Position numbers and translations under genes: made by a program | Assembly: GCF_028728065.1 (NCBI RefSeq) | Contig: NZ_CP117812.1 | Coordinates: 2,232,001 to 2,296,000, forward strand | Reading direction: 5' to 3' | DNA length: 64,000 bases | From: Lentisphaera profundi | GTDB taxonomy: Bacteria > Verrucomicrobiota > Lentisphaeria > Lentisphaerales > Lentisphaeraceae | Notes under the pieces: model-generated | What the model was told of the DNA's origin: nothing | Seen by the model: only the letters and a program-made list of their open reading frames with translations | Database searches by the model: none | Part shown: positions 6,833 to 45,650 of the stretch, piece after piece | Position numbering within the stretch: position 1 is the stretch's first letter | Layout: every line of letters starts with the position of its first letter

Positions 6833-6881
6833 TTTTTTATTCCAGCCTAATGGCAAGAGCAAGGGTCGTGAAGGGGATTCA

Positions 6882-6889
6882 TTTTATTT
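6882..6889. repeat. Left 8-bp target-site duplication of the IS1595-type element
   Basis: TTTTATTT lies directly outside the left inverted repeat and recurs exactly at 7929-7936 outside the right one. Confidence 0.9.
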
Positions 6890-7928
6890 CACGATTAACC
6901 AGTTAAGAGTGTAAAACTTGATATAGCTATTTTTTAGTAGCATATTAATTACATCTAATAAGGAGATGTATTATGCCTAAGAATAAAGTTCAGTTTCAAG
7001 TTGGAGTTAGCTTTCCAGAATTCATCAAAACTTTTGGAACCGAAGAACAATGTAGTGCTTACCTGGAAAGCTGTAAGTGGCCTAATGGCTTTAAATGTGA
7101 CACATGCGATAGTGATAAGTATTATCGCTATAAATCAGGAAGCCGCACAATCTTTCAATGTAAAGCCTGCCGTAAAAACCATCGCTTAACAGCGGGTACT
7201 TTATTTCATCGAACGAAAGTTCCTCTCCAGAAATGGTTCTTAGCTCTCCATCAAATAAGTCAATCAAAGAACAGTGTTTCAGCATTAGAATTACACCGTC
7301 ACATTGATGTGAACTATAAAACTGCTTGGTTAATAAAGCAGAAAATTATGCAGATGATGTATGAGCAGGACAGTAAGTATAAACTTAAAGGCTTGGTTGA
7401 AATAGACGATGCTTACCTAGGCGGTCGACTGGAAGAAGGTAAACGAGGTAGAGGTTCAGAAAATAAGTCTCCATTTATAGCTGCCGTAGAAACTAACGAA
7501 AATCGGAATCCAGTTTTTGTTAAACTGAGTCCTGTATCGGGTTTTTCTTATGAAGTTATTAAACAATGGGCTATAGATAATCTTGAGGAGAACTGTGATA
7601 CAATTTCAGATGGACTTAGAGGTTTCAGTGCCTTAAAAGAAGTAAGTAATCATAGCGTTTTAGTTACTAGTAAAGCAAAAAAAGAAGAAATAGAAAGTAC
7701 TTTTAAATGGGTCAATACAATTTTAAGTAACATCAAAACCTCAATTTCGGGGACTTTCCACTCTTTAAAATTCGATAAATATGGTTTCAGGTACCTTGCG
7801 GATTTACAGTTTAGGCTCAATAGAAGATTTGACCTCAGGAAAATGTTTTTTGGCTTAATATCTAAAGCTATGGCTACATCACAGAAACCTGTTAAATATC
7901 TTAATACATCGTTAACTGGTTAATCGTG
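6890..7928 (+). mobile_element. Intact IS1595-family insertion sequence, 1039 bp
   Basis: The ends are a perfect 17-bp inverted repeat, CACGATTAACCAGTTAA at 6890-6906 and its complement at 7912-7928. Both are flanked by the 8-bp direct repeat TTTTATTT, the duplication length usual for this family. One transposase gene fills the element and its stop codon lies within the right inverted repeat. Perfect ends, a perfect duplication and an uninterrupted gene suggest a recent, possibly active insertion. It sits about 30 bp outside the start of the relBE-type cassette, within the accessory island. Confidence 0.93.
6973..7923 (+). CDS. IS1595/ISXO2-like transposase
   Basis: The 316-residue transposase catalyses excision and insertion of its element. 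An N-terminal zinc ribbon has paired cysteines (CDTCDSDKY and CKACRKNH, residues ~42-70). The ISXO2-like RNase-H catalytic domain follows, with the first Asp at residue 145 (VEIDDAYLGG), the second in TISDGLRGF, and the late FHSLKFDKYGFRYL segment where the family's third ligand lies. AAGGAG precedes the ATG by 7 nt. No frameshift is present. The TAA is formed by bases of the right inverted repeat. Confidence 0.93.
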   Translation: MPKNKVQFQVGVSFPEFIKTFGTEEQCSAYLESCKWPNGFKCDTCDSDKYYRYKSGSRTIFQCKACRKNHRLTAGTLFHRTKVPLQKWFLALHQISQSKNSVSALELHRHIDVNYKTAWLIKQKIMQMMYEQDSKYKLKGLVEIDDAYLGGRLEEGKRGRGSENKSPFIAAVETNENRNPVFVKLSPVSGFSYEVIKQWAIDNLEENCDTISDGLRGFSALKEVSNHSVLVTSKAKKEEIESTFKWVNTILSNIKTSISGTFHSLKFDKYGFRYLADLQFRLNRRFDLRKMFFGLISKAMATSQKPVKYLNTSLTG

Positions 7929-7936
7929 TTTTATTT
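7929..7936. repeat. Right 8-bp target-site duplication of the IS1595-type element
   Basis: TTTTATTT is an exact copy of 6882-6889. Confidence 0.9.
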
Positions 7937-8014
7937 TAATTATCACTTAAATAGCGGCGATAAAATAAAGGGGTATTCCTTCTTAGGGAAAGTTAATGAC
8001 AAGACCTTTGCCTG

Positions 8015-8170
8015 CGCGGGCGGGGGGAAAAATGGACTTAGTTTTGGCGCTAATATGCGGGCGAGACGCCCGCGGTCCCAGGAGGCTTGCATCGTGGGCG
8101 GAAAAAAATGGACTTAGTTTTGAAGGTGATGCCAAGCTGGTGCTTGGCGTACCCAGGGAGGTAATATACG
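8015..8170. repeat. REP-like palindromic repeat cluster
   Basis: Two related blocks each begin with GGAAAAAxATGGACTTAGTT. The first is followed by the hairpin GCGGGCG-AGA-CGCCCGC and then GGTCCCAGG; the second by CCAAGC-TGGT-GCTTGG and then GTACCCAGG. A further CGGGCGAGACG fragment follows. Small open frames here (for example one reading CGRDARGPRRLAS) only translate the palindrome and are not genes. The second hairpin type reappears, inverted, near 48610. Confidence 0.6.
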
Positions 8171-8221
8171 GGCGAGACGATATATTTTGATTACCTGTGT
8201 GGTAGCACCCTCGCAGCCATG

Positions 8222-8331
8222 CCACAAAAAAGCCTCCGTGAAAACGGAGGCTTTTTTGATGCTGTGACTGAGCTTACTTAGTCTTAAATAAGGAAGCTGG
8301 TAAACCTTCTTTGTTATAGAGGTTTGCGCCT
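8222..8331. repeat. Right copy of 110-bp direct repeat bracketing the island
   Basis: This copy contains the terminator and the last codons of the intact acetylesterase gene; it matches 4746-4855 at about 93%. Confidence 0.85.
8226..8257 (-). terminator. Rho-independent terminator after the acetylesterase gene
   Basis: On the minus strand the stem AGCCTCCGT/ACGGAGGCT with loop TTTC is followed by T6, starting about 17 nt beyond the acetylesterase stop codon. Confidence 0.88.
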
Positions 8332-9893
8332 TTCGCATTGGAAGCCCAAGCGTAACGAACTTCTATGGGTGCTGAAATCTCTGGGTGAGAAACTTCTACA
8401 GAATCTTTAGAGATGATTTTTGCTGTTGCCCATTTCCAAACATTATCAGAACCTTTGATCTGAAAGTGCTTAAGCTCATCTTGAGTTTCAACAACTGGAT
8501 CAAGCAATACTTTTTTGCCCGTCATCAAACCACTGCCCACTTGATCAAATTGAACAATAACTTTGCTCGCTTCAATTTTGTGTGACTTATAAAGTGGGCC
8601 ACTATAAACATGATCCGTTTTTCCGTAGGACGTATGCAAGGCCGATAAGGCGAGGCGTTTACCTGCATCAATTTTATTATGAGGGTGAATATCTTTGGCT
8701 TCACCAATATCATTCAAGACTGCCATACCCGTATTTGGAACTGCAAGAGTCTGGAACTGCTGATAACAAACATTTACCCAACCATCATTATCGACAGGAC
8801 TTTTTGCAGGATCTCTAAACTGAGCTAACTGACACCAGAAAAAATCTAGACGATCCTGACCCCAAGCTGTTCTCCATCCTTCAATAAGAGCAGTGAAATG
8901 CCTTTGATAATTTTCGTTTTGGTAACCAGAATTTGATTCACCCTGATACCAAATAGCACCTTTCACGGCATAGGGAACAAGGGGAGCAATCATACCATTA
9001 TAGAGTGTGGAAGGCAAACGATTACTTTTTGCCGGATCAGAAACCATACGTGGTTTACGCTGATTGAATTTTTTCTTTTCAGCTTTAGCCGCAACTTTTT
9101 TGGCTTCCCACTCAATTAACTTTTTCTCATGAAGTGCTTTTGCTTTTTCAGGTGTCCACCAAGAACTACCCTTTTCGAGCTTAGCTTTTTCTTCTGCATA
9201 AAAAGCCTTGAGTTCATCAGTCGTTTGGTATTTCGGCATGGGAACCCATGGTTCAACCAAAGTGCCGCCCCAAGCACATTTAATAAGTCCTACAGGAACA
9301 TTGAGGGTTTTGCGAAGTTCGCGACCGAAAAAATAACCCGTAGCAGTAAATCCACCATTAGTTTCTGGTGAAACCTGAGCCCAGTCACCATTTATATTTT
9401 CGAGCTCTTTGCCATAAGTCGTTTCTTTTCTAACTTCGATTTGGCGAAAGAGTGGGTCCTTAGCCGTTTCCATTTCGTTTTTTATGTACTCAGCTAAAGG
9501 CATATACTCTTTTTCACGCGTAGGTTTAACGAGCTGCTTGATGGCAAAGTCCATATTAGACTGCCCAGAACAAAGCCAGACTTCACCCACCAAAATATTT
9601 TTAACGCTCAGGTTCTCTGAACCATTTTTAACTTCAAGATTTCTTCCTTCTGCAGAAGCTTCGAGTGAATCAAACTTTACCATCCACTTACCATTTTTAT
9701 CTGCTTTAGCAGATTTTGTTTGACCGGCGAAAGAAACGTCTACAGTACTACCTGCATCAGCCCAACCCCATACAGGAACCGCTTGACCGCGCTGAAGGAC
9801 TGCGCCATCTGAAAAGAGTTGGTGGAGTTTAATTTCAGCTGAAAGTTGAAAAGACGCAACAAGCGCCAATGCCGTTAAAAATAATTTATTCAT
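8274..9893 (-). CDS. Secreted sialate O-acetylesterase (SASA/DUF303 family)
   Basis: This 539-residue enzyme should remove O-acetyl groups from sialic acids or other glycans outside the cytoplasm. It starts with a clean signal peptide (MNKLFLTALALVASFQLSA). The catalytic serine lies in GQSNM (S112), and the second signature GAIWYQGESN follows near the centre. An insertion rich in Lys/Ala (residues ~230-280) looks coiled. Length and motifs match the sialate 9-O-acetylesterase group, common in PVC polysaccharide degraders. It is a single gene with its own terminator. A remnant of a close paralogue is left at 4798. Confidence 0.92.
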   Translation of the reverse strand: MNKLFLTALALVASFQLSAEIKLHQLFSDGAVLQRGQAVPVWGWADAGSTVDVSFAGQTKSAKADKNGKWMVKFDSLEASAEGRNLEVKNGSENLSVKNILVGEVWLCSGQSNMDFAIKQLVKPTREKEYMPLAEYIKNEMETAKDPLFRQIEVRKETTYGKELENINGDWAQVSPETNGGFTATGYFFGRELRKTLNVPVGLIKCAWGGTLVEPWVPMPKYQTTDELKAFYAEEKAKLEKGSSWWTPEKAKALHEKKLIEWEAKKVAAKAEKKKFNQRKPRMVSDPAKSNRLPSTLYNGMIAPLVPYAVKGAIWYQGESNSGYQNENYQRHFTALIEGWRTAWGQDRLDFFWCQLAQFRDPAKSPVDNDGWVNVCYQQFQTLAVPNTGMAVLNDIGEAKDIHPHNKIDAGKRLALSALHTSYGKTDHVYSGPLYKSHKIEASKVIVQFDQVGSGLMTGKKVLLDPVVETQDELKHFQIKGSDNVWKWATAKIISKDSVEVSHPEISAPIEVRYAWASNAKGANLYNKEGLPASLFKTK

Positions 9894-9982
9894 TTATATC
9901 CTTATTCTTTAGTGTGTTTGTGTTATAGGGTATACGTAGATAGACAATACTTTCTGACTTTTCCTTACAGTAAAACAAGTAT

Positions 9983-10014
9983 AAAAGACTGAAATCTAAG
10001 GATCTCAGTCTTTT
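9983..10014 (-). terminator. Terminator after cysK
   Basis: The stem AAAAGACTGA / TCAGTCTTTT lies 13 nt beyond the cysK stop and ends in a T-run on the minus strand. It closes the sixA-trpD-GHL10-cysK operon. Confidence 0.75.
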
Positions 10015-10026
10015 TAAACTTAGCTA

Positions 10027-10953
10027 CTACTTATATTGTTCAAAAAGCCAAGTTGAGAGGTAGCGCTCACCAGTATCAGGAAGGATACAGACGATTTTTT
10101 TACCTTTATTCTCAGGACGCTTAGCCAATTCAAGGGCCGCTGCCATTGCAGCACCACAAGAGATACCACAAAGGATACCTTCTTTTTGAGCTAATTGACG
10201 CGCCGTTTCACCCGCATCATCATCAGACACTTTAATCACTTCGTCTAGTAATTCTGGATCCATAACCCCAGGAATAAAACCAGCGCCAATCCCTTGGATC
10301 TTATGTTTCCCAGGACCTTCACCACTGAGAACCGCAGAAGTAGTTGGTTCTACCGCGACGATCTTGACATTTGGCGTTTCTTTTGCAAAAGTTCTTGCAC
10401 AGCCAGTAATGGTTCCACCTGTTCCGACGCCAGCAACAAAAAAGTCGAAATCGCCATTCATGTCAGCAATAATTTCTTTTGCCGTGGTCACTTCGTGAAT
10501 CGCAGGATTTGACGCGTTTTCAAATTGTTGAGGAACCCAAGCACCCTCAATATCAGCCGCAAGCTCATTTGCTTTATTGATCGCACCCTTCATGCCATCC
10601 GCACCAGGAGTCAAAACCAGCTCAGCACCGAAAATACGCATCAACTGACGACGCTCTACAGACATTGAATCAGGCATACAGAGAATAAGTTTGTAACCAC
10701 GAACAGCACAAGTCATAGCAAGGCCGATACCAGTATTACCAGAGGTAGGCTCAATCACAGTCATACCAGGCTTCAATGTACCATTGGCAACTGCATCATC
10801 AATCATTGCTTTGGCAATACGATCTTTGACACAAAAACCTGGATTAGAAGATTCCGTTTTTGCATAGACTTCGGCATAAGCGCCTTCCGTAAGCTTATTG
10901 ATCTTTACGAGTGGGGTATTCCCACATAATTCGAGGATGTCATTGGCTTTCAT
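10027..10953 (-). CDS. cysK: Cysteine synthase A (O-acetylserine sulfhydrylase)
   Basis: This 308-residue cytoplasmic enzyme makes cysteine from O-acetylserine and sulfide with pyridoxal phosphate. The Schiff-base lysine is K43 in GFCVKDRIAKAM; the family usually has GGSVKDR, so the two residues before the lysine are unusual. The substrate loop PTSGNTGIGLAM, the phosphate-binding GTGGT and the Ser/Cys-rich GISCGAAMAAA are intact. Its ATG overlaps the stop of the upstream hydrolase gene by 4 nt, so it is the last gene of an operon with trpD and sixA. Confidence 0.95.
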   Translation of the reverse strand: MKANDILELCGNTPLVKINKLTEGAYAEVYAKTESSNPGFCVKDRIAKAMIDDAVANGTLKPGMTVIEPTSGNTGIGLAMTCAVRGYKLILCMPDSMSVERRQLMRIFGAELVLTPGADGMKGAINKANELAADIEGAWVPQQFENASNPAIHEVTTAKEIIADMNGDFDFFVAGVGTGGTITGCARTFAKETPNVKIVAVEPTTSAVLSGEGPGKHKIQGIGAGFIPGVMDPELLDEVIKVSDDDAGETARQLAQKEGILCGISCGAAMAAALELAKRPENKGKKIVCILPDTGERYLSTWLFEQYK

Positions 10954-21106: not shown

Positions 21107-22594
21107 TTATTTGTATTCTATCATAAGTTTATCTAAAATCGGCTTTGATTTGTTCTCTGTAGTATCTTTGATTTTAAGTTCAAATTGCACTCCATAGGCC
21201 TTTGACAAAGAACTCAGGTCAATAGCTGCAGCTATTTTTTGAACATGCTTAGCAAAACCTGGCGTGTAATCATAGGACTCTTTCACTTCAGCCCAATCTG
21301 TCCAGCGATCAATAACCCCGTCATTACTACTATCAATACCCACTCTGACTTCAACTGATTCCACCCATGGCCCCGGGCTCGTGTAGTCATTTTTCTGCTG
21401 AGTGATGAGTTGGAATTCACCATTAGCAAAGCCAATATCTGGATCTGGGTGGCCTGAGCCAATATGATCACACCATTTAAACTGCTTGTCTAAACTATCG
21501 GACGTAAACCACCCAGTACTCATTTGATGACCCCCAACTGGATCATAATCACCGAACAAGTAGTATTGACCTCCTATCTTGATTGATGCCCAATCTCCAT
21601 AAGCTTCTTGTTCACCTTCATGAATTTCATATCGAGCAATATTACTATCCCAGTCAGGATGCTGTAGCCAATGAGGATGCTTATACTCAGCAAATTTCCC
21701 TGTGGGGCTTGTTCGATTATCAACTGCAGGTGACAGAATCTTGAAATCACTAATTCCGTCCTCACTTACGGCATGTCCTGCCAAAGGAGAATCCCAAGAA
21801 CGCTTATTAGCATCAATCGGACTCCAATCCTCATAAATCACGTGAAACTTACCGTCTTTATCACGAAAAAATGTACAGTCGGAGCCATCAGATGGGTCCT
21901 TAAAGGCCAATCCTTTATTTTCACCTGGCTCACCATCTTTTAAGTTTGAATCAATATAAAGGTGTGGATCTTGATCATTAGGGTAATCATAATAAAAATA
22001 AAATTTGCCATCTACATATTCCGCTGTGGTCATCCAACGCGAAACTTTATCCGTTATCGAACCATAATGCACCCAATTTTTCATATCACGACTATGCCAT
22101 GCATGATAACCACCCTGACTGGCTTTCAAACCACTCGGGGCATTAAATTGATTGGGGTACTTAGTCGTTTTTAATGTCTCATCATAGCCATCTAAGCTTA
22201 CTTCTTCAGCCTGAAAAGCTTTTTGCTGCTTTTTAGTGCCTGCACGATAGCGACCAAATATCCAGTAATCATTAGGTCCTAAGCTCAAAAACACAGGAGC
22301 ATCCCCTAAATTTGAGGGCCCTAGATTCTCCACAGAATTCCAGTTTTGCCATATCGGAGATTGATCGATAGTCAGAGTTTTCAAGTTCTTAGCCTTTTTA
22401 AATTGCTTGATTTTACTCTGATAAAAGGAATCTTTTTCTAAAGGACTCGCCATGCCATTTTTAAATTCTAAATTTTCTTGCTTCGACTGATTTTTTTTCC
22501 AATCTTCATCACTATCAATCAGCCACGTATCTGCCATTGAACTCGCAGCCATAGCTACCAGTAAAGTCGAATAAATCAAAGTTTTATTCATCAT
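21107..22594 (-). CDS. Secreted five-bladed beta-propeller hydrolase-like protein (GH43/GH32 type)
   Basis: The 495-residue protein has a signal peptide (MMNKTLIYSTLLVAMAASSMA) and repeated propeller strands (DYWIFGRYRAG, GGYHAWHSRDMKNWVHYGSI, YVDGKFYFYYDYP, GSDCTFFRDKDGKFHVIYEDW, GGQYYLFGDYDPVGGH). Such Asp/Glu-bearing blades with CTFFRDKDGKFH are typical of GH43/GH32-like clans acting on arabinose-, xylose- or fructose-containing glycans or algal galactans. The exact family cannot be fixed from sequence reading. It is monocistronic and lies next to the sigma/kinase/CBM locus, which suggests joint regulation but does not prove it. Confidence 0.7.
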   Translation of the reverse strand: MMNKTLIYSTLLVAMAASSMADTWLIDSDEDWKKNQSKQENLEFKNGMASPLEKDSFYQSKIKQFKKAKNLKTLTIDQSPIWQNWNSVENLGPSNLGDAPVFLSLGPNDYWIFGRYRAGTKKQQKAFQAEEVSLDGYDETLKTTKYPNQFNAPSGLKASQGGYHAWHSRDMKNWVHYGSITDKVSRWMTTAEYVDGKFYFYYDYPNDQDPHLYIDSNLKDGEPGENKGLAFKDPSDGSDCTFFRDKDGKFHVIYEDWSPIDANKRSWDSPLAGHAVSEDGISDFKILSPAVDNRTSPTGKFAEYKHPHWLQHPDWDSNIARYEIHEGEQEAYGDWASIKIGGQYYLFGDYDPVGGHQMSTGWFTSDSLDKQFKWCDHIGSGHPDPDIGFANGEFQLITQQKNDYTSPGPWVESVEVRVGIDSSNDGVIDRWTDWAEVKESYDYTPGFAKHVQKIAAAIDLSSLSKAYGVQFELKIKDTTENKSKPILDKLMIEYK

Positions 22595-22704: not shown

Positions 22705-25026
22705 TCACTCTGTCGTGATTTTACGGGATAGGTAATCGAGGTTGAAGCAATTTTTAGTTTTGAACTTCATTCGAAAACTCAGAGTATTCTCTCCCTTAAG
22801 CAAATTCACCGGAAGTTCCACTGTTTGCCAACGCTGCCAAGTCTTGGTCGAGGGCAAAGTCATTTCCTGCGCTACGCCATTGCATTCCATAATGATTACA
22901 GCATCGCCAAAACCCGCTGAATAACGTAGAGAAATCTTTTCTTCCCCCGCTTTATTCGCCTTTAAGGAAAACACCACCTGAGCCTTAACATTCATGTAAA
23001 AGCCGGCTAAAAAACCGCCGGACGTATAATTCGCATGGTCATAATTAACCTTAAGGCCACCAGAAAAATCAGCTTTAATGCCATCATAAATCTTGAGTAA
23101 ATCTTTGCTGAAATCTCGCGAAAATTGTTGTAATTGTTTTTCGGGGATTTGACCATCAAAAATAGTCACATGATTCAAACTCGGTAATTTGAGCAAGGGT
23201 GCTAAATCACGAATCCCCGTATGTTGTAAATCTAAGCGACGTAAATTTAAGCCCGCAAATTCATGAGCATCAACGATTGCGTTATCCGCAATAAACAAAT
23301 CTTTGAAATCTAAATAACGCAAGAGACATAACTTTGTCGTGGGGGAACTTAATTTTTGAAGTTTCGGCCCCCAGAGTACTAAGCGCTCTTGAGTTCGAGT
23401 GATCTCAATCTCAGCGCTATTTGGATAATAATGAAAAATCAGTTCAGTGATTAATTCCGAAAATTCGTCATGATTATTGAACTCATCCGCGTGGTAAGCA
23501 ATCATCAATTCCATAAAAACCGGGAGACTAGAGGCAAACTGAGCCATGACTTTAAATTCTGGAAAGTTTTTCTTCCTATTTTTAAGATCACCTTGTTTGA
23601 GGTGCTTATCATAATAAGGTGCATAAAATATTAAATCTTTTTCGTGACGCAGATAAAATTCAGCAAAACCTTTATAATCCATCGCGATAAAATAGTTAGC
23701 CGCCAAAGCTCGAATAATATAGATATCATCTGGATTTGTTTCATAAGCCGCATGAAGATACTGATTGGATCGTTCTAAGGAAACTTTGGGCGTCATCAGT
23801 AATTGATAATCACGATGTTGCTGATTATCTGCAAAAATCCGATCGACAATTTTTTGGGGTAGACTAGAAATAGATTTTTCTAGATTCTTATTTTGCTCCA
23901 GAGTCTTTTTTAAATCAGCTGCATATTGCTCTGATTTCTCTAAGGCTAATAAAGTTTCGCGTTCACTCTTTTTTATGGCTTGCATGGAAATCAATAATGA
24001 CAGAATGATCATACTGACTGCTGTAGAAATAATGACACAAAGACGACGATTACGCTGCCACAAAAAAGATATTTGAGTTAAAAACCCGGCCTCTTGTGCC
24101 TCGGTTGGATAAGTATTAAGGTAACGACTTATATCACTTTTCAGGGCCTCGACTGAAGGGTAACGATCTTCTTGATCTAGCGCCATCGCTTTGCGAACCA
24201 CAGCTTGTAGACTTGTAGGTATCAGATAATTATCTAAATCATTCGGCACTCCCAGACGACTTTGCTCCAAACGTTTCTCAAGTGTTTTATTCTCTAAACG
24301 CTTAGGTGCTAATATTGTAAATAATAAGGCTCCTAGAGCATATATATCACTAGCTTCATTTTTCTCTTTACCCTCCAATTGTTCGGGAGCCATATAAGCG
24401 GGTGTTCCTTTTGCTTCTCCATACAAGGTACAATGATTGAGCATATCGGCATCAACTTGAAAATGAGTGATATCATCTTGATTGGCCAGGATTTTCCCCA
24501 AACCCCAATCACAAACAATCACTTCCCCATAGGAACCCACCTGAATATTGTCAGGTTTCAGGTCGAGGTGTAAAACTTTACGTGAATGCGCATAAGAAAT
24601 CGCATCACAAATTTTGATGAAAATATCTAATAAGTCACTCTTCTTGTGAACCTCTTGTAGGAATTCTCCCAGGTTCGCTCCCGTTTTGAGCTCCATAGTA
24701 AAAAAAGGTTCGTCTTTACTCGACAAAGCAATTTGGTAGATTTTGATAATATTGGGATGATCCAAGAGCGCGGTAAGTCTGGCTTCACGTATGAAAGCAT
24801 CCCGTAATTCAATTTTCGAGGGGTCATTTAGAGTAGCTCGTGCGATATAACGGTGAGTACTATTACAAAAAACCCGACTGATACTCTTCATTCCGCCTTT
24901 CGCAATTAAGTGAGCCTCACTATAGAATTCCGAAGATCGAGGGAGTTGATCACATAAGAGTGAGTTCACATTTTCCGCAGAATCATAATCCTCGGCTTGC
25001 TCATACAATGAAATAAATTCGTCCAT
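22705..25026 (-). CDS. Transmembrane Hanks-type kinase with LRR and CBM-like sensor
   Basis: The 773-residue protein has a cytoplasmic kinase domain (residues ~35-305), a membrane helix (329-350), a coiled coil, a helical region, a short leucine-rich segment (LDLQHTGIRDLAPLLKLPS) and a C-terminal CBM6/35-like jelly roll (~655-770). The kinase is atypical: GGMK in the G-loop, Ala where the beta-3 Lys is expected (IARATL), HLDLKPDN instead of HRD, and DWG instead of DFG; the alpha-C Glu (FIREARL) and GTPAYMAPEQ are present. Its CBM-like domain (KISLRYSAGFGDAVIIM) is closely related to that of the divergently encoded 1269-residue protein. It follows the sigma gene by 9 nt, forming a sigma/kinase pair. 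Confidence 0.87.
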   Translation of the reverse strand: MDEFISLYEQAEDYDSAENVNSLLCDQLPRSSEFYSEAHLIAKGGMKSISRVFCNSTHRYIARATLNDPSKIELRDAFIREARLTALLDHPNIIKIYQIALSSKDEPFFTMELKTGANLGEFLQEVHKKSDLLDIFIKICDAISYAHSRKVLHLDLKPDNIQVGSYGEVIVCDWGLGKILANQDDITHFQVDADMLNHCTLYGEAKGTPAYMAPEQLEGKEKNEASDIYALGALLFTILAPKRLENKTLEKRLEQSRLGVPNDLDNYLIPTSLQAVVRKAMALDQEDRYPSVEALKSDISRYLNTYPTEAQEAGFLTQISFLWQRNRRLCVIISTAVSMIILSLLISMQAIKKSERETLLALEKSEQYAADLKKTLEQNKNLEKSISSLPQKIVDRIFADNQQHRDYQLLMTPKVSLERSNQYLHAAYETNPDDIYIIRALAANYFIAMDYKGFAEFYLRHEKDLIFYAPYYDKHLKQGDLKNRKKNFPEFKVMAQFASSLPVFMELMIAYHADEFNNHDEFSELITELIFHYYPNSAEIEITRTQERLVLWGPKLQKLSSPTTKLCLLRYLDFKDLFIADNAIVDAHEFAGLNLRRLDLQHTGIRDLAPLLKLPSLNHVTIFDGQIPEKQLQQFSRDFSKDLLKIYDGIKADFSGGLKVNYDHANYTSGGFLAGFYMNVKAQVVFSLKANKAGEEKISLRYSAGFGDAVIIMECNGVAQEMTLPSTKTWQRWQTVELPVNLLKGENTLSFRMKFKTKNCFNLDYLSRKITTE

Positions 25027-25035
25027 CTTTTGTTT

Positions 25036-25635
25036 TTAAAACTCCAGAACTTGACGTAGATTTTTCATCTCAATCAATAAACGATCTTTGACACGACTGC
25101 GCAAAACGTAAACCGTATTGGCAGGTATTTGTAAGTCATCACTAATTTCTTGGGTACTTTTCCCCTTAGAACTCATCAAAAAAACATCGATTGCCTTTCC
25201 TGAAAAAAATTGTCGTAAATGCTCTACTACATGACTCACCATGTAATTAGCCCATTCCTCATCAATGATTTTTTCCACTTGACTTGGTTCAAAATTCTCT
25301 TCATTGAAAAGACTTTCCTCACTGAGAGCCGATTCACGATTTTTTCGTTTCCTATAGCTGCGCATATAGGCTAAGATCCCATTGCGAATCACCACACTCA
25401 ACCAAGTACGAAACTTGATGTCTTGTTTGACTTCATACTGGCCCAATGCCTTCCAAATTTTTAATAATACCTCTTGCTTTAAATCATCATGCAGTTGCTG
25501 AGGAATTTTCATTTTATGTAAAAGCATCTGAATGAAACCTGAGTAATACTCCACAAATTCATTCCAAGCTAATTGATCATTGGGATCTTTAGCTCGCATC
25601 AACAAGGTTTTTCTCGTATTAAACTGATCAGTCAT
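25036..25635 (-). CDS. ECF-type sigma factor paired with a kinase
   Basis: This sigma-70-family regulator is about 199 residues from the ATG at 25635 (MTDQFNTRKTLLMRAKDP). That start aligns with its paralogue at 51402; the upstream ATG at 25674 adds 13 unrelated residues. Region 2 (DDLKQEVLLKIWKAL and KFRTWLSVVIRNGILAYMRS) and region 4 (GKSTQEISDDLQIPANTVYV LRSR-type helix-turn-helix) are intact, with an acidic linker between them. No anti-sigma gene is present; the adjacent kinase gene suggests control by phosphorylation, as known for ECF43-type sigma factors and their kinases. Likely targets are the neighbouring CBM/DUF1080 gene and other polysaccharide genes. Confidence 0.87.
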   Translation of the reverse strand: MTDQFNTRKTLLMRAKDPNDQLAWNEFVEYYSGFIQMLLHKMKIPQQLHDDLKQEVLLKIWKALGQYEVKQDIKFRTWLSVVIRNGILAYMRSYRKRKNRESALSEESLFNEENFEPSQVEKIIDEEWANYMVSHVVEHLRQFFSGKAIDVFLMSSKGKSTQEISDDLQIPANTVYVLRSRVKDRLLIEMKNLRQVLEF

Positions 25636-25809
25636 ATTATAGAATTTACGCTCGCAAGTATTAGGTATTATCACTCATTATACCACATAAAATCATTAGT
25701 ACAGAAAAATAATAACATAAATTGTCTCATGACTGTAAAGAAATCATTATTTACTTGCACTTACATAGTCAACTACAGTAAATTTAATCAATCTAAATAA
25801 GGATACTCT

Positions 25810-28800
25810 ATGAAGATACCAAAAATACAACATTGGCTAGCTTGCAGCTTTCTCTTACTAGTCTTTAGTTCATTCGCCTACACTGACACTAAAGCTAAGA
25901 CTACAGATGCCGTCATATATGAAGCCGAAGATGCGACGATGCATAAACTCAGACATGAAAGTAATCATGAAGGCTTTTCTGGGACAGGTTTCATAGGTGG
26001 TTTCTATAATAATAGCAATGGATTACTCACTTTCAAAATTAAAGCCAAAAAAGCTGGTAAGCAAGATATTACACTTCGTTATTCTGCTGGTTTTGGCGAT
26101 GCGCAAGTTGTACTCGGCATCAATGGCAAGAATCAAGAAATCACCATGAGTACGACCAAAAGTTGGAAGGTATGGGATCATATCAGTCTCCCTATTTCAT
26201 TAAAAAAGGGCGAGAATACCATCACTTTGAAAATGAAAGATGTGACTAATAAATGTATAAATCTTGATTACCTCGCTTTGGGTAAACTGTCAAAAAACAA
26301 AGCCGTCCCTACTCCAATTATAGTAAGTAATTCAGAGCCAACTTTACGCGATGCTTTTTTCAAGCCAGGAGGCTGGGAAGATATTGCTAATGTTAAAGCA
26401 AAAGATAAAAAATTATTAGTCACTCAAGAAGGCACTGGGCTACTCATCAATGGTCGCAAAGGTAAAACTAACAACATCTCTACTAAGAAGCATTATCAAG
26501 ACATTGAATTTCATCTCGAATTTATGCTCGCCAAAAATTCTAATGCCGGTGTCTATTTCATGGGTAGATACGAAATTCAAATTTTTGATTCCTATGGAAA
26601 AGATAAATGGGCTTTCTCTGATTTAGGCGGACTCTATCAACGCTGGCCACCACAACGTGGTGCGGGTGTTCCTGCCAAAGTGAATGCCGCAAAAGCCCCT
26701 GGTGAATGGCAAACTATGGACGTCATTTTCAGAGCTCCACGTTTTGACGAAACTGGTAGAAGAACTGCTCAAGCCTATTTTAAAGAAGTCAAAATCAATG
26801 GCCAAATCGTGCAAGAGAACCTTTATGCTGTTGGACCAACACGTTCATCACAATTTAATGACGAAGCGACTAAAGGTCCAATTATGATTCAAGGTGATCA
26901 TGGTCCCGTGGCTATTCGGAATATGAAAATTAAAGAAATTGATCTTAGTGATATTAAAACAAAGGAATTATCTACTGACGAAAAGCGTCCACTAGCCAAA
27001 AATGGTGACGCCATGGTCGAGATGGTTGAAATGGGCAAAGGGATTTTCCAAAACAAGGGTTGTATCGAGTGTCATAACACCACTACAAATGATCAAATCG
27101 TTAAAACTGGACCGGCCATTTATGGCGTATTTCAGAAAAAACCCCGCAGTATTAAAGTTAAAGAAAGTGCCGAAGATCATCTCGTCGACCTACCAGCAGA
27201 CAAAAGCTATTTATATCAATCATTACGTGAACCCACGGCTCATCTCTCTCTCAATAAAAAAGATGGCGATAAAGCTTTCTTACCCATTATGCCTGCTTTC
27301 ACTCCTGAAATTTTAAAAGACAGCGAAATTGAAGCTCTCTATCATTACCTCATTACTCTAAATCCTGAAAATCTTGCGGGTCCAAGTATTCATTGGCAGA
27401 ATAAGCCTAGTGATCAATACAATATTTGGAAAGATCGTGGTTCAGTCATTGTTCAAGAGCGCCCTAGAGTTCAAAGAACTATTATCCCAGGCACTTCTGC
27501 GCGTAGTTATTTCGTGGGCCTTCCTGGCAATGTGAATTATAGTTTTGATCCACGTACCTTTGGCATCTCAATGATTTGGAATGGTCCTTTCGTCAGTATC
27601 AATGGTATGATGAATGGTCGCGGAAAACCGAGTAGTCTTGGTGATAAGGCAATTCGCTGGAACAAAGGAAATACTGATTTCTTTACACCATACTTGGAAA
27701 GCGGAAAACTACTCGATCGCTCCTTTACTGAGCCGGCTTTAGCTGATTACCATTATGTCTACAAAACTCTTCATTTTGAGGGCGATTACCTCGAAGAAGC
27801 CAGTGAAATAGATAGTGAATTCCTTGGTCTCAGCACCATTAAAAATGAGATTCCTAAATTTTCCTATGATATCGAGGGCAACCGTTTAGACCTAAGTTTT
27901 GAAGTGCGTCGTGATAATAGTATTCATGCCAATTTTGATTTAAAACTCAAACGCAGCCTCAGCCTACATATCCCCAGCAGTAACTTCAGTGATTTCAAAA
28001 CTAGTTTAGGAAAGATCGAAGGTGACAAATGGGTTCTTCCTGCGGGCACACATAAAAACGTTACTTTCTCGGCTAAGCGAAAAGCAAAATTTCAAAATAT
28101 CCATACTGCGGGAATCAAATCTGTCACGAAGGAAAATCTGAATGGACAAAAACTTGCATGGACAAAAGCACAAGATAGTGAACAAGTGAAAGCAGGTATG
28201 TCAAAATCATATACCCTACATAACTTCCCAGCTCCAAAAGGCATAAATGGTCGTAAGCAACTCTTCGAACCCCTTGGTATTGAATTTTTAAATAAAGATA
28301 TAGCATTTGTCACAACAAGAACTGCTGGAGTATGGAAAGTTATCGGTGATAAGTGGTTTCTCTTCTCTGAAGGCCATTACGATTCACTCAACCTCGTCAT
28401 TGAATCAGAAAATTCTATCGTTATTGGTGAAAAGCCAGGACTCACTCGCCTGAGAGATACTGATGGTGATAACTGGGCCGACAAGCGTGAAAATGTTTCA
28501 GATCAATTCCGTTTCTGTGGTAATTACCATGAGTACCTTCATGGACCAATTGCTTACAAAGGTGGATACCTCTACAACCTAAACCTAACTCACAACTTAC
28601 CTTTTAATTACAAAGCTGGTGGTGCATACATGGGGACTGGTGGCGGTCTTAAAGGCTGGATGTGTTATGTCGATAAAGATGGTAATTTCTCAACTTTTGC
28701 CAATGGTTTCAGAAGTCCTGCGGGCCTCGCTTTATCACCAAAGAAAGAAATTATTTACACTGAAAATCAGGGTGAATACGTTGGCACATCAAAGATATTT

Positions 28801-29619
28801 AAAGTCGAAAAAGGTAAATTCTATGGCAACCCAACTGGCTTAGTCGACCTTCCAGGTCTCACCTTTAAAAGCCCTGAGATTCAATGGGACGCGGTAAAAG
28901 ATAAACGTGAACTCGCTATGATTCTCTTACCTCACAATAAAGTTATGAATGCCCCCGGCAATCCCGTCTGGGATAAAACCAAAGGCGCTTTTGGGCCTTT
29001 TGAAGGACAAATGTTTTTGGGAGACCAAACTCAATCATGCATCTATCGCATTGCTCGAGAAACAGTCAATGACATTGATCAAGGTGTAGCTCTTCCTTTT
29101 GCCAATAAACTCGCATCTGGTGTGATGCGTTTAACTTTCAACCCAAAAGATAATAGCCTTTGGGTGGGGCAAACGGGTCGTGGTTGGAGATCTCAAGGTG
29201 GTGCTGAAAGTAGCTTACAAAAAATTACTTTCTCAGGTGAAACACCCGATGCAATTCAAACTATCAAAGTCACTCCGAAAGGCTTTGATATTCACTTTAC
29301 CAAGCCGCAAAAGAATCAAAATTTTGGCTCCATCGATGTGAGCTCATGGTTTTATGTCGATTCTCCTAACTATGGCTCAGCAGAAAAAGGTACTAGGAAT
29401 GAAAGCATAAACTTAGTGACATGGAGTGCTGATCAAAAAACTTGCTCTATACAATTTAAAGAATTTGTTCTCGAGAGCAAAGAAGGAACGACGAATACTT
29501 CGCGAATTTATTTCTTAGATCTAAAGAACACTAAGTTTGGCAAAAGCCAGGGAGCCTTCCTTTCAAAAGCTTATTACACCCTTAACGCCATACCAAAAAA
29601 TAAGTTAAACACTACTTAA
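25810..29619 (+). CDS. Giant secreted CBM-DUF1080-cytochrome c-propeller protein
   Basis: The 1269-residue protein has, in order: a signal peptide (to ~residue 25), a CBM6/35-like domain (~35-158, LRYSAGFGDAQVV), a DUF1080/3-keto-disaccharide hydrolase-like jelly roll (~177-380), a class I cytochrome c domain with one heme site (C418-I-E-C-H422) and an axial Met candidate in PIMPAF, then ~700 residues resembling DUF6797 and the six-bladed propeller of PVC glucose/sorbosone dehydrogenase-like proteins (AFVTTRTAGVWKV, GFRSPAGLALSP). This fusion suggests oxidation or cleavage of keto-sugars at the cell surface with electrons passed through heme. AAGGA precedes the ATG. Single gene with its own terminator. 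Confidence 0.85.
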   Translation: MKIPKIQHWLACSFLLLVFSSFAYTDTKAKTTDAVIYEAEDATMHKLRHESNHEGFSGTGFIGGFYNNSNGLLTFKIKAKKAGKQDITLRYSAGFGDAQVVLGINGKNQEITMSTTKSWKVWDHISLPISLKKGENTITLKMKDVTNKCINLDYLALGKLSKNKAVPTPIIVSNSEPTLRDAFFKPGGWEDIANVKAKDKKLLVTQEGTGLLINGRKGKTNNISTKKHYQDIEFHLEFMLAKNSNAGVYFMGRYEIQIFDSYGKDKWAFSDLGGLYQRWPPQRGAGVPAKVNAAKAPGEWQTMDVIFRAPRFDETGRRTAQAYFKEVKINGQIVQENLYAVGPTRSSQFNDEATKGPIMIQGDHGPVAIRNMKIKEIDLSDIKTKELSTDEKRPLAKNGDAMVEMVEMGKGIFQNKGCIECHNTTTNDQIVKTGPAIYGVFQKKPRSIKVKESAEDHLVDLPADKSYLYQSLREPTAHLSLNKKDGDKAFLPIMPAFTPEILKDSEIEALYHYLITLNPENLAGPSIHWQNKPSDQYNIWKDRGSVIVQERPRVQRTIIPGTSARSYFVGLPGNVNYSFDPRTFGISMIWNGPFVSINGMMNGRGKPSSLGDKAIRWNKGNTDFFTPYLESGKLLDRSFTEPALADYHYVYKTLHFEGDYLEEASEIDSEFLGLSTIKNEIPKFSYDIEGNRLDLSFEVRRDNSIHANFDLKLKRSLSLHIPSSNFSDFKTSLGKIEGDKWVLPAGTHKNVTFSAKRKAKFQNIHTAGIKSVTKENLNGQKLAWTKAQDSEQVKAGMSKSYTLHNFPAPKGINGRKQLFEPLGIEFLNKDIAFVTTRTAGVWKVIGDKWFLFSEGHYDSLNLVIESENSIVIGEKPGLTRLRDTDGDNWADKRENVSDQFRFCGNYHEYLHGPIAYKGGYLYNLNLTHNLPFNYKAGGAYMGTGGGLKGWMCYVDKDGNFSTFANGFRSPAGLALSPKKEIIYTENQGEYVGTSKIFKVEKGKFYGNPTGLVDLPGLTFKSPEIQWDAVKDKRELAMILLPHNKVMNAPGNPVWDKTKGAFGPFEGQMFLGDQTQSCIYRIARETVNDIDQGVALPFANKLASGVMRLTFNPKDNSLWVGQTGRGWRSQGGAESSLQKITFSGETPDAIQTIKVTPKGFDIHFTKPQKNQNFGSIDVSSWFYVDSPNYGSAEKGTRNESINLVTWSADQKTCSIQFKEFVLESKEGTTNTSRIYFLDLKNTKFGKSQGAFLSKAYYTLNAIPKNKLNTT

Positions 29620-40482: not shown

Positions 40483-42045
40483 TCATTTCTTCCCCAACAG
40501 TAAATCCGGACGTTTAGAATTATTTTGTTGTTTGTAAACCTTCTTTAAACTCTCAAGGATTTCTGGGTATTTTTCAGAGATCTCATTCTCTTCAAGTGGA
40601 TCTTCTGTAAGTTTATACAAATGAAACTCCCCATTTTTCAAAGCAATGAGTTTCCAGCCATCCTCAGTAATCAAAGTGGCTGAAGCAAATGCTTTTCCGT
40701 AGCGAATAAAAATCCATTCATGGTGCTCTACTTCTCCTCTTCCAAGCAAGGTCGATAAATAAGAAACTGAACCTTTCCCACTTGGGCGCTCCACATGGAG
40801 TAAATCTGCTAAGGTAGCCATGAAATCATAATGAGTCGCCAATTTTTCACTTTTTGAAGATGGTTCAATTTGCCCCGGCCAACGGGCAATCATTGGGCAA
40901 TGAATTCCACCTTGAAAAACAGACCATTTTAAACCCGCCATACCTGCAGCCCCATTAAATGTATCTCCACCATTGGACGTCCTCCATTTATCGTCAGTAA
41001 AATTAGCTTTGCTACCATCAGCCTTTTGTAATTTCCTTGAATTGGATTTTGGCAACTGACGATTTCTATTCATATAATAAGTTTCGTGACCATTATCAGA
41101 GGTAAAAATAACTAGAGTTTTATCATCTAGGTTCAAGGCTTTCAATTCATCCATAATCACTCCAACATGATCATCGAGCATTTTGACCATAGTAGCATAC
41201 TTTTTCTCCGATAGAGTAAGATCGTCTCGTCCCTCATAATCTGGATGCAATTCATTTACGGCTACAGGCCCATGAGGAAGTTGAGTTGGGTGGTAAAGAA
41301 AAAACTTTTTGTTTTTATTTTCCCGAATAAAACTAAGCATTTCTTTAAGAAAAACATCCTGTGAATACCTAAGCCCTCCTGACCCGACGGGTCGAGTTCC
41401 AGATTCAGATGCCTTACCTGCTGTATAGCTAGTATTGCCTTCGAGGTACATTTTTTCACCATTCTTCCAAAGGTATGTCGGGTAAAAACCATGGGCACGG
41501 ACATGGTCATAATAACCCACATAGTGATCCCACCCACGGCGCTGGAGTTGCTTATGCCAAGTCAAAAACCCTTCATCAAGCTTACCAAATTGAGCAGTCT
41601 TATATCCAGCTTTTTGCGCAACTTGAGCTAAAAAAACTTCATGTTTAGGAGTTGCTAATACTTGTTCCCTTTTTTGGGTGAAGGCATCAAAAGTTTTCTT
41701 CCATTGTTCCTCTGATGGTTTTGATTTATCTAGTTTTACTACGTACCCACCCTTTGTATGAGAGCCTGACTTCATTCGACCATCATGCATCCCTGTCAGA
41801 AGACTCCAACGTGCAGGCGCACAATAAGTATTACCATAGTAATTATTAAAGCTCATACCTTCAGCAGCTAGCTTATCAATATGAGGTGTAGTAATAATTT
41901 CTTGTCCTTTATGCCCCAATAAACCCATGCCCAAATCATCTGCATAAATTAAAATAACATTAGGACTCTCATCAGCTAAAACAGTGATATTAGCTGAGCA
42001 AATAGACGCAATTACAACAAATAATACAAAAAATTTATGTATCAT
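40483..42045 (-). CDS. Secreted type I sulfatase 1
   Basis: The 520-residue enzyme has a signal peptide (to ~residue 24) and the S1 sulfatase core. C75 in CAPAR is the residue converted to formylglycine. The metal ligands lie in YADDLGMG and FTSDNGHETYY. It should hydrolyse sulfate esters on polysaccharides outside the cytoplasm; substrate unknown. A long insert between residues ~90 and 145 (KSGSHTKGGYVVKLDKSK) is unusual. It overlaps the preceding sulfatase by 4 nt. Confidence 0.93.
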   Translation of the reverse strand: MIHKFFVLFVVIASICSANITVLADESPNVILIYADDLGMGLLGHKGQEIITTPHIDKLAAEGMSFNNYYGNTYCAPARWSLLTGMHDGRMKSGSHTKGGYVVKLDKSKPSEEQWKKTFDAFTQKREQVLATPKHEVFLAQVAQKAGYKTAQFGKLDEGFLTWHKQLQRRGWDHYVGYYDHVRAHGFYPTYLWKNGEKMYLEGNTSYTAGKASESGTRPVGSGGLRYSQDVFLKEMLSFIRENKNKKFFLYHPTQLPHGPVAVNELHPDYEGRDDLTLSEKKYATMVKMLDDHVGVIMDELKALNLDDKTLVIFTSDNGHETYYMNRNRQLPKSNSRKLQKADGSKANFTDDKWRTSNGGDTFNGAAGMAGLKWSVFQGGIHCPMIARWPGQIEPSSKSEKLATHYDFMATLADLLHVERPSGKGSVSYLSTLLGRGEVEHHEWIFIRYGKAFASATLITEDGWKLIALKNGEFHLYKLTEDPLEENEISEKYPEILESLKKVYKQQNNSKRPDLLLGKK

Positions 42046-43586
42046 TTCTCCCTTGACCCATCGAAACGCAATCCCGCAGATTTGCGAACTTGCTCAAGAA
42101 GCTTTTTCATATCCTCTGCCACTTCAGGGAATTGCTTGATGACATTATTTTGCTCACCCGCATCAGATTCCAAGTCGTAGAGCTCTTGTTTGGCTTTTTT
42201 CTTATTGCCTTTAGAAATATATTTCCATTTACCTTTGCGCACGGCATGATCAGTCTTTCTTGCCTCCTCAAACATGTAGCTTAGGCCTTGGCTATCTTCG
42301 CCGAGGAAGGCAGCTAAGGTATCGCGGCTATCAATCGCCTCGTCTTGGCGCAAGTCATGGCCCACAAGTTCCGCTAGCGAAGTATAGAGATCCACTTGAT
42401 TCACCATGGCATTGGAAACTGCAGGCTTAATTTTTGCCGGCCAGCGAATGATAAAGGGAACGCGAGTTCCACCTTCATAGATCTGATACTTCCCACCGCG
42501 ATAAATTCCGGAGCCATCGTGACCATGATCACTTTCTTTTGTAGAAGTCTTCGTCACCGAACCATCGGCATAGCCATCGTCATAAACAGGACCATTATCA
42601 CTCGAAAAGAAAACAATAGTATTATCTGCCACACCCGCTTCATCGAGAGCTTTCATGAGTGCGCCAGTACTCCAATCGAACTGAACCATCGCATCGCCGC
42701 GCTTACCGAGTTTAGTTTTACCCTGAAAACGGGGATGTGGTGCACGGGGAACGTGAATATCTTGCGAGGCGAAATAAAGGAAAAAAGGTTTATCGCCTTT
42801 GGCTTTTTCTTTAATAAATTCAGTAGCTTTTTCGACAAAAACATCCGCCATTGTTTCATCATCCCAAAGAGCCTTCTTACCACCCGACATAAAGCCGATG
42901 CGGCCAATCCCGTTAATGACTGAGCTATTGTGACCATGAGTACTGGGATAATAAGTCATAAGCTCAGGGTTCATTTTGGCATGACCATATTGAGTCGAAC
43001 CAGGCTTATTTACTGACTCAAGACTTCTCCCTACATAGATAAGGTCATTTGGGTCGTAATTATAAACGCGGTGACCATCGAGATAAACACAGGGAACACG
43101 ATCATTTGTTGATGGCAATAAAAACATTTGATCAAAGCCGATTTCCAGTGGACCGGGCTTCACATCACCATTCCAGTTGGTCTCAACTCCTTTGGCACCA
43201 ATACCCAAATGCCACTTACCGACGACACCGGTTACATAGCCATTTTCGCGAAGCATTTTGGGAAGCGTAGGAATATCTGTTGGAATACTTAGTGGGGCAT
43301 TCGGAGGAAGAATACTGACCCCATGACGAAAGGCATGAACACCCGTGAGCATAGCAAAGCGCGAAGGCGAACAAGTGGCTGCTGAACAGTGACCATCCGT
43401 AAACTGAATCCCACCTTTTGCGAGATTATCAATATTGGGTGTAGGGATCTTTTCTGAGCCATAAACGCCCACATCACCATAACCGACGTCATCACCATAA
43501 ATGAAAATAATATTCGGCTTTTCCGCCGCACTTAAATTTGCGCTTAGCGCAAGCAGAAAAACTCCTGCTGATCGAAATAAGTTCAT
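42042..43586 (-). CDS. Secreted type I sulfatase 2
   Basis: The 514-residue enzyme has a signal peptide (MNLFRSAGVFLLALSANLSA), the formylglycine motif C72SPSRFAMLTG, GDDVGYGDVG and SSDNGPVYDDGY metal sites. The IGKWHLG-type loop reads VGKWHLGIG. It is arylsulfatase-like with no extra domain. It lies in the middle of the three-gene operon, overlapping the first gene by one base and the third by four. Confidence 0.94.
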   Translation of the reverse strand: MNLFRSAGVFLLALSANLSAAEKPNIIFIYGDDVGYGDVGVYGSEKIPTPNIDNLAKGGIQFTDGHCSAATCSPSRFAMLTGVHAFRHGVSILPPNAPLSIPTDIPTLPKMLRENGYVTGVVGKWHLGIGAKGVETNWNGDVKPGPLEIGFDQMFLLPSTNDRVPCVYLDGHRVYNYDPNDLIYVGRSLESVNKPGSTQYGHAKMNPELMTYYPSTHGHNSSVINGIGRIGFMSGGKKALWDDETMADVFVEKATEFIKEKAKGDKPFFLYFASQDIHVPRAPHPRFQGKTKLGKRGDAMVQFDWSTGALMKALDEAGVADNTIVFFSSDNGPVYDDGYADGSVTKTSTKESDHGHDGSGIYRGGKYQIYEGGTRVPFIIRWPAKIKPAVSNAMVNQVDLYTSLAELVGHDLRQDEAIDSRDTLAAFLGEDSQGLSYMFEEARKTDHAVRKGKWKYISKGNKKKAKQELYDLESDAGEQNNVIKQFPEVAEDMKKLLEQVRKSAGLRFDGSREK

Positions 43587-45442
43587 TAACTTTTACCTTT
43601 TTTATTTTTTATTTTTTTGGATTTTTTCTTGGGGCCGAGCGGAGGCATGCCATTCACCAAATAGTCGTGAAATGGTTTCAATTTCCCATCTTTAATTTTA
43701 TAGTTTTTCACGAAGGGAATTAAACGTTTGTTATTGGCACCCATCCAATCTATATAATTGAGAATCTCTAATTCCGCATAAGTATCGGACTGGAGTAAAT
43801 TCTCAAAAACTTTATAGGCTTCTGCGGATTGATTAATCTCAATTAAAGTCCACGCTGCCATAGCTCGCACAGTCTCACTAGGATCATTTAACAAAGGCTC
43901 AACATCTTCTACAACATCAACTTGAGCTCTAAGCATGAAAAGACCACATAAGGCCCAATGACGTACACCACTATCTGGACTCTTTAAGAGTTCTTGCAAT
44001 TCCGCATAAAACTCTGTCTTTTGCTCCAACGCTACTGCCGCTGCCTGCATGTAAGCATCGAGATCATAGAGCTCTTTATTGCGAACGACTTCATAGGGAG
44101 TGATGCCATTTTTCGACGCGCGATGATTGAGTTCCGATTCGGGAATCAAACCAGAATCCAAATGAGCTTGCTGAGCTGAATCCAGCTTCTTTTTCATCGT
44201 CTCAACAATCTGTTTATATTCGGGACTCTGAGCCAAATTATTTAAGCAGAAACTATCCTTGCTTACATCAAAAAGTTCATCTTTGGCCTTGGTCTTAAAA
44301 AAACGACTCTGATTGGCATTGAGTTTCCCATCTTTGTAGGCCTGCTCCCATTCACGCTGCATCGGGATCTTCCACTGATAAGGAAGATGCTGACCGCGCG
44401 GCACATAAGGCATGTAGTTACGCACATACAAAAACTGCTTATCACGAATGGCTCTAGCATTCTCAATTTTCCCATCATTACGCCCACGAAAGTGAAAGAT
44501 ATACTCCGGCTCAGCGGTTTTCTCTGCACCAAGAAAAATTTCTCCTTGATAATTCGAAGGAATTTTGGCTCCCGCAAGCGATAACCACGTAGAAGGCATA
44601 TCAATGAAGCTCACCAGACGATCCACAGTCATACCAGGCTTATCTGCTGGCCAAAGCTCTTTATATTTTTCCGGTATACGTACAATTAAAGGGCAATGTG
44701 TTCCACTATTATACATATAGCGTTTCCCACGCGGCAACGGCCCACCATGATCTGAGTTATAAATTACAATAGTATTTTCAACGAGACCAAGTTCCTCTAA
44801 TTTTGCTAAGGCCACTCCTATGCCTCTATCCATTTTGGTCACATTTTTGTAGTAGTAGCCATAATTCGCTCGAGTATCTGCTGTATCCGGATGATAAGGG
44901 GGGATTTGAACTTTGTCTTTTGGGTAAGTGTGATCCAAGCCCATTGCGCGACTCTCATGTGAGTCCGTATGATTAATTACCTGAAAGAAGGGCTGATTCT
45001 TTTTGAGACTCTCCCAGTTGAGTTTATTAGAATCCCATAGAGTTTTCAAACGTGAATCATCACGAGTATTATAATCACGCTTGGTATGATTCCCTGTAAA
45101 GTAGCCTGCTTTTTTAAGTTGCTGAGGATAGAAAATAACCTTATCCTGAGGCACGGCTACATTGCTACGATGATTATGTCCCGCCATTGAGACCGCATTC
45201 ATTCCTGTAATCCAAGAAGTTCGTGTTGCCGAGCAAACGGCTGCATTTGAATAAGCATGCGTATAACGAAATCCCTCCGTAGCCAGCTTATCAATATTCG
45301 GCGTTATCGCGACTTCGTTTCCGTAACAGCCAATATGGGTCACGTTATTATCTTCACTCGTCAACCACAAAATATTGGGCTTTTCTAAGCTCCAAGCTTG
45401 CGTCCCTATTAGGGCAAAAAATACTAGTACTAATTTATGCAT
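43586..45442 (-). CDS. Secreted type I sulfatase 3 with HEAT-like tail
   Basis: The 618-residue protein has a signal peptide and the sulfatase domain with C70SATR (the CxAxR variant) and TSEDNN in place of the usual DD pair, as in heparan-type and related S1 subfamilies. After residue ~475 there are helical HEAT-like repeats (LKSPDSGVRHWALCGLF, LNDPSETVRAMAAWTLIEI) and a lysine-rich end (KKKSKKIKNKKGKS). First gene of the operon. HEAT tails on PVC sulfatases may help dimerise or attach the enzyme. Confidence 0.92.
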   Translation of the reverse strand: MHKLVLVFFALIGTQAWSLEKPNILWLTSEDNNVTHIGCYGNEVAITPNIDKLATEGFRYTHAYSNAAVCSATRTSWITGMNAVSMAGHNHRSNVAVPQDKVIFYPQQLKKAGYFTGNHTKRDYNTRDDSRLKTLWDSNKLNWESLKKNQPFFQVINHTDSHESRAMGLDHTYPKDKVQIPPYHPDTADTRANYGYYYKNVTKMDRGIGVALAKLEELGLVENTIVIYNSDHGGPLPRGKRYMYNSGTHCPLIVRIPEKYKELWPADKPGMTVDRLVSFIDMPSTWLSLAGAKIPSNYQGEIFLGAEKTAEPEYIFHFRGRNDGKIENARAIRDKQFLYVRNYMPYVPRGQHLPYQWKIPMQREWEQAYKDGKLNANQSRFFKTKAKDELFDVSKDSFCLNNLAQSPEYKQIVETMKKKLDSAQQAHLDSGLIPESELNHRASKNGITPYEVVRNKELYDLDAYMQAAAVALEQKTEFYAELQELLKSPDSGVRHWALCGLFMLRAQVDVVEDVEPLLNDPSETVRAMAAWTLIEINQSAEAYKVFENLLQSDTYAELEILNYIDWMGANNKRLIPFVKNYKIKDGKLKPFHDYLVNGMPPLGPKKKSKKIKNKKGKS

Positions 45443-45650
45443 ACTTTTCCTTTAATTTTATTCACGATTAACCATAACAAGGGGCAAAGCCTCTTAGTCG
45501 CCTGGTCAAGGAATGGCAATTCCTTGCTAGGGGAGCTCGAGGGGGAAGATCCCCTCTCGTACGGGTCGCATCATGCCCTCAATTCTACCTAATCGAGGTT
45601 TTATTTAATATAAACAACAGCTATCAACAACTTAGGTGACTCATCAATGA
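45443..45650. other. Intergenic spacer with a partial IS1595-type terminal repeat
   Basis: CACGATTAACCA at 45463-45474 equals the outer 12 bp of the inverted repeat of the insertion sequence at 6890 and is preceded by TTTTATT, similar to that element's target. Two further hairpins (AAGGAATGGCAATTCCTT, GGGGGAAGATCCCC) follow. No gene is present. Confidence 0.4.

Follow-up and report, generated by a model that had tools for sequence, protein, structure and literature searches.

A CBM35-type domain shared by a sigma-linked membrane kinase and a divergently encoded exported enzyme suggests a glycan-sensing switch in Lentisphaera

Introduction

Clostridium thermocellum possesses CBM-bearing membrane sensors of the RsgI type, which are paired with sigma factors (SigI) and control CBM-bearing enzymes (PMC4711584). 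ECF sigma factors can also be coupled to Ser/Thr kinases (STKs). For EcfP/PknT and EcfK/PknS it is established that such an ECF/STK pair works through phosphorylation, and the sigma factors of this group, ECF43, are inactive until phosphorylated because their region 2.2 lacks acidic residues (PMC8999054, PMC13147305). The STK-linked groups outside ECF43 have been proposed but are uncharacterised (PMC8999054). Planctomycete ECF59, ECF61, ECF62 and ECF217 likewise form ECF/STK pairs, and planctomycete STKs commonly carry a periplasmic DUF1080 domain (PMC8999054, PMC11032199). DUF1080 proteins have in turn been linked to the hydrolysis of 3-keto-glycosides (PMC9007349).

Here we describe a trio of genes in a 64,000-nucleotide stretch of the Lentisphaera profundi genome (the window, to which all positions refer unless another locus is named), consisting of a membrane kinase, an ECF sigma factor and an exported enzyme, in which kinase and enzyme share a CBM. 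As in the SigI/RsgI systems (PMC4711584, PMC6056542), a sigma factor is combined with a single-pass membrane sensor whose CBM is extracytoplasmic (by the topology inferred from one transmembrane segment), the putative target is a CBM-bearing enzyme and several parallel sigma/sensor copies exist per genome. RsgI is an anti-sigma factor released by proteolysis (PMC12203970), whereas the sensor here is a kinase; no RsgI N-terminal or anti-sigma domain was detected in it by Pfam, its N-terminus being a protein kinase domain. SigI regulons also span many genes whereas one target element was found here, and RsgI sensor domains are of the CBM3, CBM42, PA14 or GH10 kind as opposed to the CBM35 of the window kinase. 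With EcfP/PknT and EcfK/PknS the locus shares a sigma gene adjoining that of a partly periplasmic transmembrane Ser/Thr kinase, but the ECF43 factors carry STTA/QTTA where the window sigma keeps an acidic region 2.2, and the sensor domain in the window is a CBM. In contrast to the planctomycete DUF1080-STKs, the window kinase has the CBM of the enzyme, not its DUF1080, and the enzyme is its immediate divergent neighbour. A preliminary description of this DNA had presented a sensor that borrows the binding domain of its target as a possibly undescribed logic. The use of CBM sensors for CBM-bearing enzymes by SigI/RsgI (PMC4711584) precludes that wording; the logic is akin to that of other regulators, and it is the combination of kinase CBM, ECF sigma and CBM-bearing enzyme that is new.

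Results and Discussion

The kinase (773 aa; 22705-25026, minus strand; Pfam Pkinase 2.5e-32; orthologues 56-64% identical) comprises a cytoplasmic kinase domain (residues 36-300), a single transmembrane segment (327-351), a TPR/LRR-like region and a C-terminal CBM35/CBM6-type domain (residues 646-773; 22708-23091, minus strand), the last of these identified by Pfam, BLASTP, alignment and a structural model. With one transmembrane segment, CBM and kinase domain would lie on opposite sides of the membrane. The ECF-type sigma factor (25036-25674, minus strand; TIGR02937 2.1e-19, Sigma70_r2 5e-12) is encoded first in the same operon, 9 bp ahead of the kinase gene, and probably starts at the ATG at 25635 rather than at the GTG at 25674, since its orthologues begin at the equivalent Met. 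The divergent enzyme (1269 aa; 25810-29619, plus strand; orthologues 63-77% identical) contains, according to Pfam, a CBM35 domain (25909-26289, plus strand; also supported by BLASTP and alignment), DUF1080 (3-keto-disaccharide hydrolase), cytochrome c and a C-terminal region with weak resemblance to a DUF7133/GSDH dehydrogenase; TIGR02604 matched weakly. The link of DUF1080 proteins to 3-keto-glycoside hydrolysis (PMC9007349) suggests that a glycoside may be oxidised and cleaved by the enzyme. The positions and motifs given in the preliminary description were reproduced, with the sigma gene between the other two, but its label of a surface enzyme was not: the protein looks exported, and its signal-like N-terminus and CxxCH heme site make the periplasm its most likely location. 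Downstream of the kinase lies a further exported-looking protein (495 aa; 21107-22594, minus strand), which gave no Pfam or NCBIfam match and does not stand beside the trio in other species.

The close match previously noted between the kinase C-terminus and the N-terminal domain of the enzyme was borne out, as BLASTP aligned kinase residues 658-767 with enzyme residues 47-156 over 110 gapless residues (46% identity, 69% positives, E 1e-31). Pfam assigned the kinase domain to CBM_6 (E 9e-8; 32.8 bits against a cut-off of 28.9) and the enzyme domain to CBM_35 (1e-10; 42.4 bits against a cut-off of 28) and CBM_6 (1e-6), the kinase CBM of L. marina scoring 20.5 bits, under the curated cut-off. 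A search of the whole 5.46-Mb genome with the kinase CBM matched that domain itself and, at 5.9e-33, the enzyme next to it, and nothing else; the genome thus has two copies, both at this locus, which excludes chance.

An AlphaFold2 model of the kinase CBM (pLDDT 90) is a CBM35-like beta-sandwich; a model of the enzyme without its CBM (pLDDT 37) was left out. The closest solved fold is the CBM35 of Lmo2446, the Listeria cycloalternan-forming enzyme (4kwu; Z 19.5, rmsd 1.9, 123 residues, 36% identity), followed by CsxA and CITase. These three CBM35s have the same fold as the kinase CBM at Z 18-19.5 and 24-36% identity, and each belongs to an enzyme and not to a kinase. The candidate binding residues of Lmo2446 are common to the kinase and enzyme CBMs: H19, W85, W88, N117 and D119 (alignment numbering) are invariant in 10/10 of them and kept in Lmo2446, consistent with a working sugar site, which by comparison with the family these residues would form. 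The kinase and enzyme CBMs share their fold and likely their site. The N-terminal EAED motif is kept in the enzyme CBMs and, in whole or in part, in the kinase CBMs of a sister genus; it is lost in the Lentisphaera kinase CBMs alone, whose binding may therefore differ from that of the enzyme CBMs. This loss favours a variant in which the circuit is the same and the ligands are different, the kinase CBM sensing a soluble oligosaccharide or product and the enzyme CBM binding polymer or having little role. Sigma-dependent control of the enzyme would then stand, and the notion of a common target would fall. The invariance of the putative sugar-site residues in both CBM groups speaks against this variant, which we consider unlikely, though deserving of more weight than the other alternatives discussed below.

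One Cys, two residues before the putative binding Asn, is also invariant in 10/10 kinase and enzyme CBMs. It lends something to the idea of feedback on enzyme level, in which the kinase CBM would monitor the enzyme or how far it is occupied, either through competition for one limiting ligand or through contact (perhaps via this Cys). Contact between the two CBMs is purely conjectural, however, and the same Cys occurs in the tandem CBMs of an unrelated outgroup enzyme (locus L212), so that it is not special to the pair and we rejected it as a unique feature. We regard such monitoring as highly improbable.

Within its own genome the window kinase is a special case. The sigma factor has 62 genome matches, itself included, and in the surroundings of 60 of these we gathered 53 kinases of at least 550 aa, a sample beyond which the genome may hold others. 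A CBM_6/35 domain was present in 1/53, the window kinase, and a binding-type domain common to kinase and neighbour was likewise found at this locus only among the 53; the shared domain is no house rule, contrary to any reading of it as a general logic of this genome. Most of the other sampled kinases have TPR/LRR-like repeat ends, and a few carry F5/8 type C (one), laminin G (one), Cache (one) or FGE-sulfatase (two) domains. The nearest other kinases (40-41% identity; L. marina, G005) stop where the CBM would begin, which together with its presence in only one of the 53 sampled kinases marks the CBM as an addition to a large standard kinase family. Such a distribution is what would be expected if the duplication of a domain between adjacent genes had no regulatory meaning, with the kinase CBM as only an anchor or passenger and the LRR/TPR region, which other kinases have too, as the sensor. 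We think this improbable in view of the conservation reported below.

Other sensors with related features were observed. At locus L090 (4596-9099), the last 238 residues of a 1013-aa kinase that contains laminin-G and LRR parts match the adjacent 424-aa LRR protein (phmmer, 278 bits), a second, non-CBM case of sharing between sensor and neighbour. At locus L038 (9995-12211), a sigma-linked kinase ends in an F5/8 type C (galactose-binding-like) domain, with a transposase gene upstream of its sigma. In the window itself, a run of five sulfatases (40483-48519) is headed by an ECF sigma (50225-50764) and a laminin-G-bearing FecR protein (48696-50225), all on the minus strand (40483-50764). The FecR protein is another sensor with a domain of glycan type, here belonging to the anti-sigma kind. 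A second sigma/Ser-Thr kinase pair (51402-54169, plus strand) diverges from this cluster, and Pfam recognises only the kinase domain in its kinase; an 894-aa protein beyond the pair (57011-59695) gave no Pfam match.

The origin of the two domains was approached by phylogeny. No root could be placed on a first tree, whose three outgroups were remote. Closer outgroups for a second tree, the CBMs of GH141-like beta-helix enzymes, came from profile-searching 289 genomes in the phylum. Against these, the kinase and enzyme CBMs form one group (support 99/98), within which the kinase CBMs (94/95; 98/97 under LG+G4) and the enzyme CBMs (79/78; 92/92) are sister groups, which places the copying far back. 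Pairing of the kinase and enzyme CBM of one species was rejected (p 1.6e-6 and 0.0016), and with it recent gene conversion between the two. A later origin of the enzyme CBM, from that of a Lentisphaera kinase, was disfavoured under each of two models (p-AU 0.085 and 0.024), and the simplest history would be one duplication before the two genera split, followed by loss of the enzyme copy in the sister genus. Of the claim that the sensor borrowed the enzyme's domain, common descent is upheld by the tree, but the direction of transfer is not, as the two groups are sisters. This early parting of the two CBM groups, before the species arose, also fits the variant with different ligands.

The divergent trio is kept in the same layout in three Lentisphaera species (that of the window, G001 and G002), with within-genus identities of 64% for the kinase, 74-75% for the sigma and 76-77% for the enzyme. 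None of the flanking genes in the window was found beside the trio in either G001 or G002; the flanks of these two are similar to one another in gene length. Both genomes also have a second copy of the CBM-bearing enzyme at another site, close to a sigma other than that of the trio. The sister genus (G004, G005) has the trio as well, with the kinase CBM kept (47-48%), but its enzyme lacks the CBM, DUF1080 directly following the signal-like N-terminus. The co-occurrence anticipated in the preliminary description thus holds within Lentisphaera and fails for the enzyme CBM in the sister genus. That the enzyme CBM is dispensable there again favours different ligands, and the persistence of the kinase CBM and of the promoter-like element beside a CBM-less enzyme argues against monitoring of the enzyme. 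Against a mere passenger speak the retention of the CBM in 5/5 kinases from two genera, where its identity (42-69%) is only moderately lower than in the remaining ectodomain (48-71%), and a trio that stays together. A scan of named GTDB genomes turned up no more than Lentisphaera marina and two Lentisphaeraceae/Lentisphaerales MAGs. In MAG G005 (C215; locus L109, 11738-14660), in-frame TAA codons occur in the sigma (one) and kinase (two) genes in otherwise well conserved frames, the enzyme is open and the promoter-like element intact. These stops count against the switch proposed below, and would reflect either decay of the locus or a fault in the assembly. Locus L219 (G283; 5216-10942) encodes an enzyme with similar parts arranged differently (PA14-DUF7133-CBM6/35-DUF1080), directly followed on the same strand by the gene of a Ser/Thr kinase without CBM.

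The intergenic region between sigma and enzyme contains a bipartite promoter-like element, TGTAAAGAA-N15-CACTTACAT (25734-25766, plus strand), 43 bp 5' of the enzyme ATG. Its general form, TGTAAAGAA-N15-CACKTACAT, lies 38-43 bp before the enzyme ATG, and 17/18 of its fixed columns are identical in 4 species, compared with 56/163 in the whole gap-free region (hypergeometric p 3e-8, a value overstated by our having chosen the element after seeing the alignment). An exact match occurs once per genome in 5/5 genomes, the sister genus included, this exactness being partly built in because the element was defined from sites that were later searched. The next-best sites, with 2-3 mismatches, were about as frequent as for a reversed control, no second site indicating a wider regulon rose above chance in the five genomes, and the element was not found at the displaced CBM-bearing enzyme paralogues of two genomes. 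These observations fit a promoter for the linked sigma with a very small regulon. The earlier proposal that the sigma turns on the enzyme gene is thereby strengthened, the promoter role being putative. The element persists in the sister genus despite the absence of a CBM from the enzyme, and the shared domain is accordingly not needed for regulation.

How the kinase would act on the sigma is constrained by region 2.2, which in the window reads HDDLKQEVLLKIW and is alike in the orthologues, with acidic residues kept (DDLKQE). The locus shares with ECF43 the adjacent transmembrane Ser/Thr kinase, but the window sigma shows neither the loss of DAED nor the phosphorylatable Thr (STTA/QTTA) in region 2.2. 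With the acidic region retained, activation as described for ECF43 does not apply here, and any effect of the kinase on the sigma must come about in another way.

Conclusions

Conserved genes together with a conserved promoter-like site suggest a dedicated glycan-sensing switch, probably with a single target, a reading in which we place about even confidence. The kinase would be anchored in the inner membrane, its CBM35 facing the periplasm, where binding of a glycan or oligosaccharide would change the state of the kinase. The kinase would then activate, or cease to restrain, the ECF sigma whose gene immediately precedes its own in the operon, and the sigma would transcribe the divergent enzyme gene from the element at 25734-25766. 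The sister CBM of the enzyme would keep it attached to a glycan of the same kind, which its redox and DUF1080 domains would attack. We further propose, somewhat more tentatively, that sensor and single target enzyme keep sister CBMs since both must read the same glycan, with a kinase and no anti-sigma factor.

Lentisphaera and the planctomycetes possess dozens of sigma/kinase pairs whose signal is unknown. For this one pair the sensor domain, the target gene and a promoter-like element can all be named from sequence, which makes it directly testable. If our proposal is true, the CBM-sensor logic of clostridial RsgI would have a counterpart in kinase-based signalling, and the sensor would report exactly the substrate that will hold the enzyme.
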